A DNA stretch of 64,000 nucleotides, taken from Planctomycetota bacterium. GTDB lineage: Bacteria; Planctomycetota; Brocadiia; Brocadiales; Brocadiaceae. Every line of letters starts with the position of its first letter. The first letter of the stretch is position 1. Positions 38,970 to 43,494 of this stretch are shown here, one piece after another. Below the pieces are notes generated by a model. That model saw only the letters and a program-made list of their open reading frames with translations. It did not search any database and was not told the origin of the DNA. Made by a program: the position numbers and the translations under genes. The stretch lies in the NCBI GenBank assembly GCA_016873165.1, contig VGXV01000019.1, forward strand, positions 1 through 64,000. Reading direction: 5' to 3'.

Positions 38970-39787
38970 TCACACCTTGATTAGTGATTGTATGGTATCA
39001 AATCTTTTGGCAATGTTATTCTCTTTGGATATTTTTGATTTCATGGTCGTCACTCGCCTGCTTATGGATGAATAACCAAGTCCAGATAATCTCCCTATCT
39101 CCTGATTCGTGTACAATCCCGTACTCCATAAAAAAAGGAACAAATCACGATCCACTTTATATGAATCAGACACCCTCCGTGAATCTGCAAAATCCTTAAT
39201 TTCACATTGTAATATATTGGTAGCTTTACGCAATAAGATTTCTGTCGATATAGCAGGAAAGCCGTAGCAGATAGGTATCGTTCTCTACGAGAAAGTTCTT
39301 GAACCTTCCCTGAAAAAGGTGGCCGCGTCTTTTGTTTTTTACATTATACCTGCGAGTATATGTAGTTCCGAACGGGTGCATTCCCGATTTTTTGTAACAC
39401 CTCATTTCAGGATGGGTCAAAGCCTGTCCTGAGCTTGCCGAATGGACGAAGCAGACCCATCAATCATATTCTCCTTTATTTTGATGGGTGTGCTGGCGCT
39501 TCACCCATCCTACTCTGAATGTTACAAAAAATCGGGAATGCACCCGTTCCGAACCACTGCATGGCTCTGGAAAGATTGGGCTTGTTTGTTTTAAGGAGTA
39601 AATGGTAGTGGTTGTCCAAGAGGATATAGGCATAGATTTCTACCTCAAATCTCCTTGTTATTTTTCCCAATATTTCGAGAAATGAAATACAGTCGATATC
39701 ATCAGCAAAAATACCACACCTTTCGTTTCCCCTCGATAATACGTGATAATATGCGCCTTCAAATTCAATTCGCCACGGTCTCGTCAT
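38970..39787 (-). pseudogene. REP-associated tyrosine (RAYT, Y1) transposase, broken
   Basis: Reading on the minus strand, the start MTRPWRIEFEGAYYHVLSRGN and the HUH motif LLDNHYHLLLKT are intact. The frame is then split by a 172-bp MITE between GTGG and TTCGGAAC codons. After the insertion the frame resumes (TRRYNVKNKRRGHLFQGRF, the conserved RAYT motif) to a stop near 39226. A C-terminal piece follows in another frame with the TNQEIGRLSGLGYSSISRRV helix-turn-helix. So it has at least one insertion and one frameshift with probable deletion, and is inactive. RAYTs mobilise REP palindromes, which fits the palindrome-rich intergenic regions of this window. Confidence 0.9.
39374..39545. mobile_element. 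MITE-like element A (172 bp) inserted in a RAYT gene
   Basis: Perfect 26-bp terminal inverted repeats (39374-39399 and 39520-39545) beginning GGGTGCATTCCCGATTTT. The element is flanked by a 9-bp target duplication GTTCCGAAC at 39365-39373 and 39546-39554. The interior carries further short palindromes (AGGATGGGT...ACCCATCCT) and no reading frame. The same family occurs at 42817-42956. The autonomous transposase is not in the window, and I cannot assign an IS family from the ends. Confidence 0.92.
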
Positions 39788-39840
39788 AAAAGAAAAGCAG
39801 CAAACACACCGGATGCTGTCAAATAAATAATCACTGATCA

Positions 39841-39895
39841 AGGTGTGACCCCAAGCACCTCCCCCAAGCACCTCCCAAGGTGTGACCCCAAGCAC
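39841..39895. repeat. Short direct repeats AGGTGTGACCCCAAGCAC
   Basis: The 18-mer occurs at 39841-39858 and 39878-39895, with AAGCACCTCCC also doubled in between (39853 and 39866). It lies exactly between the RAYT remnant and the IS1182-like fragment and looks like debris from element junctions. Confidence 0.7.
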
Positions 39896-39896
39896 A

Positions 39897-40112
39897 CTAT
39901 TTTATCGCCTCATGCAACTTGTCGTATCCGAGTATGTTTTTAGTGCGATGCAGATTGTATGCCAGGTATATCAAACTGAACTCCCCTGTTATTTTCTTTT
40001 TCCCTTTCATCAGTGTGTAGGTGTAGCCCCAGCTGCGTTTCACCGTCCCGAAAATGTGCTCGATGATTTCCCCCTTTAGGATTCTGGTTGCAACCGACAT
40101 CGCCGCCCGCAC
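39897..40112 (-). pseudogene. C-terminal fragment of an IS1182-like DDE transposase
   Basis: About 70 residues with EHIFGTVKRSWGYTYTLMKG and GEFSLIYLAYNLHRTKNILG, the end of the DDE catalytic domain (the Glu of DDE lies in the EH...GTVKR motif) of IS1182/IS5-type transposases. The rest of the gene is missing upstream, where sequence past 40112 shows no continuing homology, so it is a scrap. It marks another transposition event at the left edge of the accessory island. Confidence 0.82.
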
Positions 40113-40187: not shown

Positions 40188-40216
40188 TTGACACTACTGC
40201 CTGGAAAAATTAGGAT
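40188..40216 (+). promoter_or_regulatory. Candidate promoter of the three-gene cassette
   Basis: TTGACA at 40188-40193, 17 bp, then TAGGAT at 40211-40216 (four of six -10 bases). It lies 64 bp ahead of the first cassette gene, directly after the transposase scrap. Confidence 0.45.
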
Positions 40217-40280: not shown

Positions 40281-41084
40281 ATGTTGATTAATGGCCGTCA
40301 ATCTATTTGCCATAAACTAGTTTATGAAGTGCGCTATAAATATGGATATGCTTATTTGGATCGATGTGGAAGCATTATCAATGAGATTATGAATAGTTAC
40401 CCCGCATGGACACAAGAAACCGTTCCGGACCCGCAGAATGCACCATTAATATGTTTGGAAAACGGCATGAAATTGAACTTTGGTGCGACAAAATATGACT
40501 TTTCTTTAGAACAGCCATTTGGAGATGAAGAGGATCTAACCTCGAGCGATATAGAAAGATTTATTGATCATGCCGATGGTATTTCTTCCCTGATAAATGA
40601 AAGGCTCGATTTAAGGATATTTACAAGGGTAGGATTTAGAATATGGTACATTTTTCGGGCAGAGACATTAACAGACGCCGAAAGTTGGATAAAACAGTTG
40701 CTAGGAATAATCCCTTTTGACGATCAAATCGCCAAAGCGCTAAATAACAGTAGCGTTGAAGCGAGAAACTATGCGGTGGTGATTGCTTCTTCCGACAGAA
40801 AATTCCGGATTTCAATAAATGGTGTGGAGAGTTATGCAAAACTAGACATACGAGGAAACATACTGGATGTCCGTGTAAGTAAACTACACAGAGAACAGGA
40901 TAAGTATCTTTTAAAACAACTAAAAGAAAAAAAGAGGGTTGCCAAAAACCCACATTTTGCCGGTATGCTTGATATTGATTCATTTGTTGAAACACCAAAT
41001 GGCGTAGATGCAAAAGACTTTATTACAGAATCTTTACGCCAGATTGAAGATGCATTGCCGAAAGTATCTAAAAAGGTAATTTAA
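40281..41084 (+). CDS. Unrecognised cassette protein 1 (267 aa; possibly TIGR04255-like)
   Basis: Soluble protein with no signal or membrane segment. The pattern of N-terminal VYEVRYKYGYAYLDRC and central RIFTRVGFRIWYIFRAETL faintly recalls the TIGR04255 family of sporadically distributed proteins of unknown function, in which a strand near the N-terminus and an R-x-G-x-R-x-x-Y motif recur. I cannot confirm this by eye. The C-terminus is helical and charged (DKYLLKQLKEKKRVAKN, ESLRQIEDALPKVSKK). It is the first of three same-strand genes with gaps of 9 and 45 bp, sitting between transposon remnants, which suggests an acquired accessory cassette. Confidence 0.7.
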   Translation: MLINGRQSICHKLVYEVRYKYGYAYLDRCGSIINEIMNSYPAWTQETVPDPQNAPLICLENGMKLNFGATKYDFSLEQPFGDEEDLTSSDIERFIDHADGISSLINERLDLRIFTRVGFRIWYIFRAETLTDAESWIKQLLGIIPFDDQIAKALNNSSVEARNYAVVIASSDRKFRISINGVESYAKLDIRGNILDVRVSKLHREQDKYLLKQLKEKKRVAKNPHFAGMLDIDSFVETPNGVDAKDFITESLRQIEDALPKVSKKVI

Positions 41085-41093
41085 AGGTGGTTT

Positions 41094-41666
41094 ATGGATA
41101 GTTATTGTAGTATTTTGAATGATTCATCGGAAGTAATCGTAAATCCTCGAAAATCTCCCGGATTTATCAATAATGCGGCAAGCCAGGAGGCAAGAAGTTC
41201 CGTGTATGATTTGCCTTATAACAAAACCGGCAGAGATGCAAGACCTATTCAGAAAAAAATTGCTAAAAACGGTTTTGAAGAAAAAACGGACAGCCAAATC
41301 GCCGCTTTAGAAGAAGTAAACAGGTTTCTTCGCAAGGCGTCTATGGCAGCAGCACAACTCATCGAAGAAGATAATCCCATAGAACAAGCCAATCTTGCTT
41401 TTGAATTCAAAGATTATTTGCAAGTCCTTTGGAGGCATAAAAACGTCAGAGAAAACAACTGGGGAGACCTCTTGAATATTACTCAGGCTGTGTTAGCGCA
41501 GGTAGAATTCGAGTTGCTTTCTAAGTCGCAAAAGGAGTGTATTAAAACAATCGTTGATGGATATCTTCGAAAACCGGCTATTGCAGATATAGATATGGAA
41601 AAATCGTTAGAAGTATTTTCCAACGCCGGTTTCGATCCGTGGTGTGGAATTAGTGGAAAATTCTGA
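41094..41666 (+). CDS. Unrecognised cassette protein 2 (190 aa)
   Basis: No family recognised. The first 60 residues look disordered and polar (SRKSPGFINNAASQEARS-like composition). The rest is helical, with QIAALEEVNRFLRKASMAAA and FEFKDYLQVLWRHKNVREN, and ends FDPWCGISGKF. The AAAGGTGG box 3-10 bp before the ATG is the strongest ribosome binding site in the cassette, and only 9 bp separate it from gene 1. A disordered N-terminus plus a small helical domain would suit an antitoxin-like or adaptor protein paired with the PIN-like product downstream. That is inference from position. Confidence 0.68.
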   Translation: MDSYCSILNDSSEVIVNPRKSPGFINNAASQEARSSVYDLPYNKTGRDARPIQKKIAKNGFEEKTDSQIAALEEVNRFLRKASMAAAQLIEEDNPIEQANLAFEFKDYLQVLWRHKNVRENNWGDLLNITQAVLAQVEFELLSKSQKECIKTIVDGYLRKPAIADIDMEKSLEVFSNAGFDPWCGISGKF

Positions 41667-41711
41667 AAACAATTTTAAGACATAAGAACAACATACCTTC
41701 ACACATATCTA

Positions 41712-42551
41712 ATGCCTTCCGGAACAGCAGTTTTCGCTGATACTTCTATTCATATCGCCAGGTTTTTAAGAGAACCTCAAATGAAAGAGGCTATTAACCG
41801 ACGCTTGGCTTCTTATGACATTGTCATTTCAAGTCCCGTTGTTATTCAAGAATTCAAACGACGCGTTATTCATGAAGCTGTGTATTTAATGAATCTGTTA
41901 AATACGAAAGGATCTTACGAAAAGGTAAAAAGGCATGTGTTGAATGTGCTTCCAGAGCAACAGAATAGAAAAAGAAATATTTGCTTAAATGTGTTGGAAG
42001 AAATATTTCATACAGGTGTTGATGACGCCGAGCTGACCGAAAGGGCAAAAAGCTACCTTCGCACACTCATAAAATTTGGTGTAAAGAAATTAAGGTCACA
42101 GATTGGCCATATAGTTGGAGGCACCGGTTGTTACTTGTCTACTTGTCCTGTAAAAGAAAAAATACCTTATAAACGCTACGAACTGGGTTCGAAAAAATGC
42201 AGCAACGTATGCCTTCAATGCCCTATCGTAAACTTTCTTAAAGAAAAAGAAGAATTATGTAAAGAGATATTACAATGTCTTTCGAGTATATCCAATAAAT
42301 CAAAAGAACTCGAAGTCGCATTAAAATTTTTACAGGATTCTTTATCAAGCACCGAGGCGATTCACCAAAAAGACCCGTGCTATACAGCCGGAGACCTCCT
42401 CATTGCTCTTGAAAGTCATGGGATTCCTGACTTTTACACGATGAATTATAAGGAAAGCAACGTGTATTGTGATGTCCTCAAACAAAAACTCATCGTGCGG
42501 CCTAATAACCCTGAAAACAAGGAAGAAGAATACGTATCACATTCTTTGTAA
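41712..42551 (+). CDS. PIN-like nuclease candidate with cysteine cluster (cassette protein 3, 279 aa)
   Basis: The N-terminus AVFADTSIHIARFL places an Asp at the end of strand 1 as in PIN/VapC ribonucleases. VISSPVVIQEFKRRV supplies the conserved Glu, and CYTAGDLLIALESHG an Asp; FYTMNYKES follows where PIN domains have the TxDxxF strand. Between these lies a long insertion (about residues 60-215) with a cysteine-rich part C-x4-C, then C-x3-C-x2-C (CYLSTCP, KKCSNVCLQC, also LCKEI), which may bind zinc or an iron-sulfur cluster. Twice the length of VapC toxins. Likely a metal-dependent ribonuclease or nuclease-fold effector; substrate unknown. No family name can be given with confidence. Confidence 0.68.
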   Translation: MPSGTAVFADTSIHIARFLREPQMKEAINRRLASYDIVISSPVVIQEFKRRVIHEAVYLMNLLNTKGSYEKVKRHVLNVLPEQQNRKRNICLNVLEEIFHTGVDDAELTERAKSYLRTLIKFGVKKLRSQIGHIVGGTGCYLSTCPVKEKIPYKRYELGSKKCSNVCLQCPIVNFLKEKEELCKEILQCLSSISNKSKELEVALKFLQDSLSSTEAIHQKDPCYTAGDLLIALESHGIPDFYTMNYKESNVYCDVLKQKLIVRPNNPENKEEEYVSHSL

Positions 42552-42763: not shown

Positions 42764-42990
42764 ATGGCAAGACCACTACGCATTGATTACCCCGGGGCAT
42801 ATTACCATATAACCGCGGGAGCATTCCCAATTTTTTGTAAATCAAAATAAAGCCGACCATAAAGGATCGGCGCTACCATGCAATATGTGTCGTAGCGCGG
42901 GTGGTTTATCCCCCGCATAATACCTCCACATTTTACAAAAAATTGGGAATGCTCCCTATAACCGCCAGAGGCGTTGGACGTCAAAAGGAT
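42764..42990 (+). pseudogene. 5' remnant of a second RAYT transposase, split by a MITE
   Basis: Removing the 140-bp element and one target copy restores an uninterrupted start MARPLRIDYPGAYYHIT joined to ARGVGRQKD, the canonical RAYT N-terminus. Homology stops after about 26 codons, so the body of the gene is gone. It is the counterpart, on the opposite strand, of the remnant at 38970-39787, and the two flank the three-gene cassette in inverted orientation. Confidence 0.85.
42817..42956. mobile_element. MITE-like element B (140 bp) inserted in a RAYT remnant
   Basis: Perfect 25-bp terminal inverted repeats (42817-42841 and 42932-42956) starting GGGAGCATTCCCAATTTT. A 9-bp target duplication TATAACCGC lies at 42808-42816 and 42957-42965. 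The ends agree with element A at 21 of the first 23 positions; the interior differs and carries its own palindromes (GCCGACC...GGATCGGC, GCGCTAC...GTAGCGC). No reading frame. Confidence 0.92.
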
Positions 42991-43134: not shown

Positions 43135-43494
43135 TTAAAGTCCCAATACCTTTTTCAGGATAAAATCCACGTTCTTCAAAGTATCCGCATTTACCGTTCC
43201 CCACCGTTCTAAAAACCGTTGGATGGAAAGAGATTTCACCTGGTCACATCGTATAACGGAAGTTTGGTGAATACCTCCTTCCGGAGGAGATATGAGGATG
43301 TGGAGCCTAAACGGGGTATCCTTTCTGAAGGTTGTAACAGGGCAAACAACAATCAATCCCCACGGACTTCTGTTGAGTTCATCAACGGAAACAACGAGGG
43401 CAGGATGCCGGTCCTGTATCTCTGAACCGATGGAAGGGCTGAAATCAACGCGCCTGATTTCTCCTCTTTTTGGAAAGGGTTTTTCGTGCGCCAA
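43135..43494 (-). CDS. MazF/PemK-family endoribonuclease toxin
   Basis: Type II toxin of 119 residues. It shows the MazF core: KRGEIRRVDFSPSIGSEIQDRHPALVVS (first strand pair and the conserved R-P-A-LVVS), VCPVTTF, and TSVIRCDQVKSLSIQRF with the conserved D-Q-V-K-S. The start appears to be TTG within the last codons of the antitoxin gene, giving a 50-bp overlap typical of such operons. It would cut mRNA when the antitoxin is degraded. Confidence 0.93.
   Translation of the reverse strand: MAHEKPFPKRGEIRRVDFSPSIGSEIQDRHPALVVSVDELNRSPWGLIVVCPVTTFRKDTPFRLHILISPPEGGIHQTSVIRCDQVKSLSIQRFLERWGTVNADTLKNVDFILKKVLGL

Follow-up and report, generated by a model that had tools for sequence, protein, structure and literature searches.

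A conserved three-gene cassette with a predicted split PIN-fold nuclease in planctomycetes: a candidate mobile toxin module

VapBC toxin-antitoxin (TA) modules are mobile and patchily distributed, and encode a PIN-fold nuclease, with a D/E/D(N) set of acidic residues, directly 3' of a small partner gene. Toxin-antitoxin-chaperone (TAC) modules, CmdTAC among them, join a third component to toxin and antitoxin, and sensing is proposed to run through it (PMC11618068, PMC5105189); in CmdTAC, the chaperone is pulled away by freshly synthesised capsid protein, and degradation of the antitoxin follows (PMC11618068). DS-3 and DS-5, from DefensePredictor, are anti-phage systems with PIN nucleases that are not classical TA pairs (PMC13092281). 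TIGR04255 is an NCBIfam family described as 'sporadically distributed', with no function assigned, of which the literature searched holds no mention. Here, we compare with these systems a cassette of three genes, P1, P2 and P3, located in contig VGXV01000019.1 (positions 1 to 64,000, forward strand) of a Planctomycetota bacterium of the Brocadiaceae (assembly GCA_016873165.1); this whole stretch of 64,000 nucleotides (nt) is referred to as the window.

The cassette consists of three open reading frames (ORFs) on the plus strand, as described in an original prediction made from the letters of the window, with intergenic gaps of 9 nt (P1-P2) and 45 nt (P2-P3):

40281..41084, plus strand: P1, 267 amino acids (aa), ORF call; first gene of the cassette, divergent TIGR04255 relative, its fold predicted as tandem alpha/beta (TBP-like); may act as sensor, chaperone or regulator
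41094..41666, plus strand: P2, 190 aa, ORF call; directly 5' of the nuclease gene; putative antitoxin or partner
41712..42551, plus strand: P3, 279 aa; predicted PIN-fold nuclease whose fold is interrupted by a helical insert; conserved set of four cysteines; putative RNase toxin

As in VapBC, the predicted nuclease gene lies directly 3' of a smaller partner gene, the acidic set is present, and the distribution is mobile and patchy. Unlike in VapBC, P3 carries a helical insert with cysteines and is matched by none of the Pfam PIN models, P2 cannot be recognised as a VapB, and P1 is added as a third gene. The cassette would share with CmdTAC and other TAC modules the combination of toxin, antitoxin and a third, possibly sensing component; however, its predicted toxin is a PIN nuclease where CmdTAC has an ADP-ribosyltransferase, and P1 resembles TIGR04255 and is predicted to have a TBP-like fold, rather than being a recognised SecB. 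PIN nuclease effectors are also found in DS-3 and DS-5, which differ in having one and two genes, respectively, the DS-5 partner being DUF5830/AcrIF4-like; this comparison is by description. Lastly, P1 aligns with TIGR04255 end to end by profile, both head tight multi-gene operons, and PIN-type third genes occur in some TIGR04255 cassettes, whereas P1 homologues fall below the family score cut-off and neither P2 nor P3 has detectable sequence homology to the TIGR04255 partners compared.

The three genes form a conserved module. In a search of 98 relatives, P3 was found in 5 genomes, in all of which it is preceded by P1 and P2, and a scan of genome contigs with P3 returned 8 loci, all from planctomycetes (the anammox genus Scalindua included) and each with the same three genes, the start of P3 not being in one frame at one of them (L016). 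In addition, independent profile searches of 392 Planctomycetota genomes matched P3 in 9 and P1 in 8, with 8 common to both (Fisher P 7e-16, the genomes being treated as independent and their relatedness ignored). The ninth P3 genome holds a P3 fragment of 94 aa, and in one of the 8 shared genomes (G213) P1 and P3 lie on different contigs. Every complete copy keeps the order P1-P2-P3, even where identity falls to about 25%, and all three genes are under purifying selection (ratio of non-synonymous to synonymous substitution rates 0.08-0.24 where synonymous sites are unsaturated). Co-occurrence in other genomes, set beforehand as a test of the original prediction, was therefore observed. That the module is confined to Planctomycetota is no more than an indication from the genome-contig scan; the plasmid and phage collections searched for P3 yielded no relative.

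As to the protein P3, its AlphaFold2 model (mean predicted local distance difference test score, pLDDT, 88.7) depicts a PIN fold split by a helical insert. When the model was compared with known structures by VIA-align, PIN proteins came out on top (1o4w Z 9.6, FitB 8.8, VapC20 8.7, HARP 7.0), with PRORP at 6.3. Specifically, 9 of the best ten rows (Z 9.6 to 7.0; root-mean-square deviation, rmsd, 2.8-4.3 A; 113-139 residues) are PIN proteins by established annotation, the tenth being 8wmm chain G, and unrelated folds appear in the list from Z 6.9. The PIN/VapC-like acids picked out in the original prediction (FADTSIH, QEFKRR and GDLLIA) are invariant in all covering homologues of a set of 16 sequences and, judged against the predicted strands, occupy the canonical PIN positions (D after strand 1, E after strand 2, D opening a late helix, D/N after strand 4):

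41739..41741, plus strand: D10, first PIN acidic residue, 15/15 covering sequences; motif FADTSIH
41850..41852, plus strand: E47, second PIN acidic residue, 16/16; motif QEFKRR
42393..42395, plus strand: D228, third PIN acidic residue, 16/16; motif GDLLIA
42444..42446, plus strand: N245, fourth PIN position, N in 14/16 and D in 2/16

The computational evidence thus establishes a PIN fold for P3 at the level of the predicted model, with the acidic positions in place, as the second test set for the original prediction demanded, and from this model P3 would be a metal-dependent PIN endoribonuclease. The C-x3-C-x2-C cluster noted in the original prediction is present in this P3 (C163, C167, C170) but is not a conserved motif, C167 being unique to this copy. 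The conserved set is made of four cysteines, three within the insert (C140, C163, C170) and one (C223) just before the D228 helix:

42129..42131, plus strand: C140, conserved four-cysteine set, 16/16
42198..42200, plus strand: C163, conserved four-cysteine set, 15/16
42219..42221, plus strand: C170, conserved four-cysteine set, 16/16
42378..42380, plus strand: C223, conserved four-cysteine set, 16/16

These cysteines are as conserved as the acids, although identity to the P3 of the window falls to about 22-30% in the more distant members; the obvious interpretation of this pattern is that they may hold a structural zinc or iron-sulphur cluster.

Annotation searches placed the proteins in no recognised system. 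P1, P2 and P3 searched singly against Pfam, NCBIfam and PADLOC gave no usable match, and the homologues, scanned one by one against the same collections, added nothing coherent; an Rfam search gave no match. The PADLOC signature proteins of known anti-phage systems did not match the module, apart from weak Cmr5 matches and one CARF-HEPN match. The Cmr5-like match of P3 (E 2e-4 to 9e-4) was dismissed as a helical chance match, as it occurs in only 2 of 16 members and the model is that of a PIN protein. The CARF1--CARF_HEPN match (E 1.4e-6) is an isolated one, in a single P3 homologue of alignment A7 that lies outside the ten members rescanned; its close relatives are without it.

The first gene gave a link that lay beyond what the original prediction could know, namely the kinship of P1 with TIGR04255 toxin cassettes. 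Aligned by hhalign with 40 TIGR04255 proteins, P1 matches over 223 columns end to end (8-271 vs 24-266; probability 91%, E 1.1e-6), with a score of 51.3 against a maximum of 25.9 in 100 block shuffles and 20.2 for the reversed control. An earlier comparison was weak (E 0.035), and values near 1e-6 were reached with deeper alignments. None of the 10 P1 homologues scanned against NCBIfam reaches the curated TIGR04255 cut-off; on sequence grounds P1 is therefore best regarded as a divergent TIGR04255 relative, not filed as a member. The P1 model (pLDDT 80) shows repeated strand-helix-sheet-helix units, and TBP and AdoMetDC-like folds recur in the lists of fold matches. SecB does not appear among the P1 fold matches listed, which does not exclude a SecB-like fold. 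Arginine-kinase rows (Z 8.5) were not accepted, as their rmsd is 4 A and they stand close to many other folds.

TIGR04255 itself is present in 66 of the same 392 genomes. In most of 43 loci read, two genes come close behind the TIGR04255 gene in tight packing, frequently overlapping by 4 bp, as judged from mechanical ORF calls that are unreliable in GC-rich loci, and the third gene is variable. A PF01850 PIN above the curated cut-off lies on the same strand within about 1 kb downstream of TIGR04255 in 6 cases (G020, G012, G214, G274 and twice in G153), that of G012 with one in-frame stop. This compares with 0.16 expected for 85 genes at the PIN density of the five genomes, which had been preselected for a PIN-like third gene, so that what the test confirms is the identity of these genes, not a rate; the second case in G153 had not been anticipated. 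One PIN of a TIGR04255 operon matches VapC (E 4e-4), one third gene is PemK/MazF-like (E 0.006), and a zeta toxin is annotated as the third gene of such an operon on a Vibrio plasmid. By eye, the second genes of the TIGR04255-PIN operons carry a charged tail, which we take to resemble that of VapB-type antitoxins, and those of another group have a helix-turn-helix (HTH)-like stretch. P3 gave no significant profile match to the small PINs of these cassettes.

The second and third genes of the tight TIGR04255 operons at L032-L051 and L102-L124 vary, and include PIN, PemK-like, 'RQGD...TCD' (with an HTH-like second gene), 'NCIAWAA...WWEPDP' and 125-aa families, several of them unnamed. At L039 (G020:C1 ~1162057-1163550), the TIGR04255-second gene-PIN cassette is followed 5 nt on by a gene resembling, by eye, a DUF1156-type DNA methylase; such methylases are known from defence loci. 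On the Thermus brockianus plasmid pTB1 (L125), a TIGR04255 gene is found near cas6, immediately downstream of a pair annotated as CopG-VapC.

A P2 homologue stands at the same place in every complete cassette, with conservation higher in its C-terminal part than in the first 80 residues (mean top-residue frequency 0.41 vs 0.26). In a phage contig, a shorter homologue (P2') forms a pair with a P3 relative (P3') without P1; the homology of P2' to P2 was confirmed with a profile leaving P2' out (E 1.7e-17 or better). This single case suggests that P2 and P3 form the core of the module. An 86-aa ORF preceding P3 at L065 was considered as a short P2 and not counted, its score being no better than those of shuffles.

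Within its class, the module is found in 5 of 75 genomes and is missing from both congeners of this genome; in an empty-site comparison, the flanking genes showed no synteny in the congeners. The rpoB of this genome is 86% identical to that of G016, a member of the same family, and yet the three proteins of G016 resemble those of G033 and G048, members of other families, more closely than those of this genome. Likewise, G048 and G041 share 82% of RpoB and only 28% of P3. DNA similarity ends at the module boundaries, short edge matches aside. Therefore, from the patchy distribution and the incongruence with rpoB, we conclude that the module moves horizontally.

The original prediction had also proposed a defence or mobile setting, and this holds for several relatives. 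The viral contig L064/L075 carries, with a terminase gene on one side and a capsid gene on the other, a full cassette, a gene with an ASCH domain and a second P2'-P3' pair. None of the matches to terminase, ASCH and capsid is strong by itself (E 5e-5 to 6e-4), but taken together they fit a tailed phage. On another viral contig (L065/L076), P3 adjoins Mu-like phage genes; at L009 the module adjoins filamentous-phage genes (Zot, pIV and a Rep_1 initiator); and in G115 a truncated P1 adjoins genes for a XhoI endonuclease and a DNA methylase. The setting does not hold throughout: many copies lie between ordinary chromosomal genes, some of them without visible element boundaries.

Further observations were made at these loci. 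In the second P2'-P3' pair of the phage contig (L075:4752-8858), the ASCH-domain gene occupies the place of P1. An ORF at L074:1124-1852, near XhoI endonuclease and methylase genes, fuses the N-terminal half of a P1 homologue to an apparent PurL C terminus, through either chimeric assembly or a real insertion. On the short contig of L014 (59-2883), an HNH_5 protein and two unnamed genes precede the module. At L015 (10960-11202), the first ~60 codons of carB occur again just past P3, with full carB on the opposite side, as if an element had inserted at the start of carB; the contig ends there, and an assembly artefact is possible.

With moderate confidence, we read P1-P2-P3 as a small mobile tripartite toxin module of the toxin-antitoxin or abortive-infection kind, with P3 as a PIN RNase, P2 as a putative antitoxin and P1 as a putative sensor or regulator. 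The linkage of the genes and the PIN fold of P3 support the three-component nuclease system originally hypothesised, while its function, that is toxicity, neutralisation and anti-phage activity, we infer. P3 would act as a metal-dependent endoribonuclease whose insert is held by a four-cysteine metal site; P2 would be the protein partner keeping it off, and P1 a third component stabilising P2 or sensing infection. An infecting phage, or loss of the element, would disturb P1, P2 would be lost and P3 released. The RNA of the host may then be cut by the released P3, with tRNA as the target if VapC is a guide, and either growth or phage replication would come to a halt. This would possibly parallel the CmdTAC logic of sensor/chaperone, antitoxin and toxin, with a PIN RNase replacing the ADP-ribosyltransferase.

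Several results weigh against this reading. P3, at 279 aa, is twice the size of VapC; the nine members scanned match no Pfam PIN model (PF01850-type included), and Foldseek alone found no significant match of the P3 model in the PDB, so that the PIN assignment rests on the VIA-align scores (Z up to 9.6) and the conserved residues. P2 matches no antitoxin family and has no similarity to the second genes of four TIGR04255 cassette groups. To these is added the location of many copies, which are flanked by ordinary chromosomal genes rather than by defence islands.

Of the alternatives, the one that survives best is a possible, if doubtful, anti-phage nuclease complex without a true antitoxin, in which, as is reported for DS-3 and DS-5, P1 would sense, P2 bridge, P3 be auto-inhibited and all three be needed. 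DS-5 is a two-gene PIN system in which deletion of the partner abolished defence without releasing toxicity (PMC13092281). P3, too, is a split PIN with a large insert, and the absence of an antitoxin-family match for P2 would fit such a complex; however, P2 occupies the position of type II antitoxins and its homologue pairs with a P3 relative without P1. Moreover, toxins of classical TA systems (PIN/VapC, PemK-like and zeta) are found in the wider set of TIGR04255 cassettes, and it is because of these related cassettes that the TA-like reading is favoured, although the present evidence does not separate the two. A purely selfish role, as an addiction cassette for mobile DNA with no anti-phage function, is unlikely: the copies in prophage- or transposon-associated DNA, the horizontal spread and the PemK/MazF pair neighbouring the cassette in the window would agree with it, but other copies are stably fixed between chromosomal genes, and some relatives have restriction, HNH and DNA-methylase genes nearby, a hint at defence. 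Housekeeping or element-lifecycle RNA processing, whether RNase P-like (HARP/PRORP) or in phage RNA maturation, appears most improbable, since, despite HARP and PRORP among the structural matches (Z 7.0 and 6.3) and one copy among phage structural genes, the module occurs in few genomes and close congeners lack it, PINs of the small VapC/FitB type have higher scores, and no linkage to tRNA processing was seen.

If the TA-like reading is right, the module would provide the uncharacterised TIGR04255 family of NCBI with an anatomy and a role open to testing, extend the PIN nucleases by one that has a conserved cysteine insert and escapes current PIN models, and represent a toxin module common to planctomycetes, Scalindua included, and phage-associated contigs, and absent from current defence catalogues. 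More tentatively, TIGR04255 and relatives such as P1 might be the hallmark of three-gene toxin cassettes that form a class not yet recognised, in which the first component is shared and the toxin (PIN, PemK-like, zeta or one of several unnamed families) can be exchanged; P1 would then be the infection sensor and P3 a PIN nuclease controlled via its four-cysteine insert.

Around the cassette, the IS1182-like scrap, the RAYT remnants and the toxin-antitoxin pair were found as originally described, and no recognised defence gene was seen adjoining it in the neighbourhood examined (about 36 to 47 kb of the window):

39476-39895, left of the cassette: Y1 transposase (RAYT-type) remnant, Y1_Tnp E 4e-7
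39897-40112, left of the cassette: IS1182-like DDE scrap, DDE_Tnp_1_6 E 8e-6
40188..40216, plus strand, upstream of P1: sigma-70-like promoter match TTGACA-17-TAGGAT, a consensus match only, the number of such sites in the region being that expected by chance
43135-43494, right of the cassette: PemK/MazF toxin of the neighbouring PemK/MazF pair, E 3e-25

The start of the right-hand transposase (from ~42764) is broken by a palindromic element. Two related elements of this kind (39374-39545 and 42817-42956) lie inside the transposase remnants that flank the cassette on both sides; their matching ends read GGG(T/A)GCATTCCC(G/A)ATTTTTTGTAA, and each is flanked by a perfect 9-bp duplication (GTTCCGAAC and TATAACCGC, respectively). 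The right-hand element (42817-42956) has more than 20 near-identical copies in this genome.
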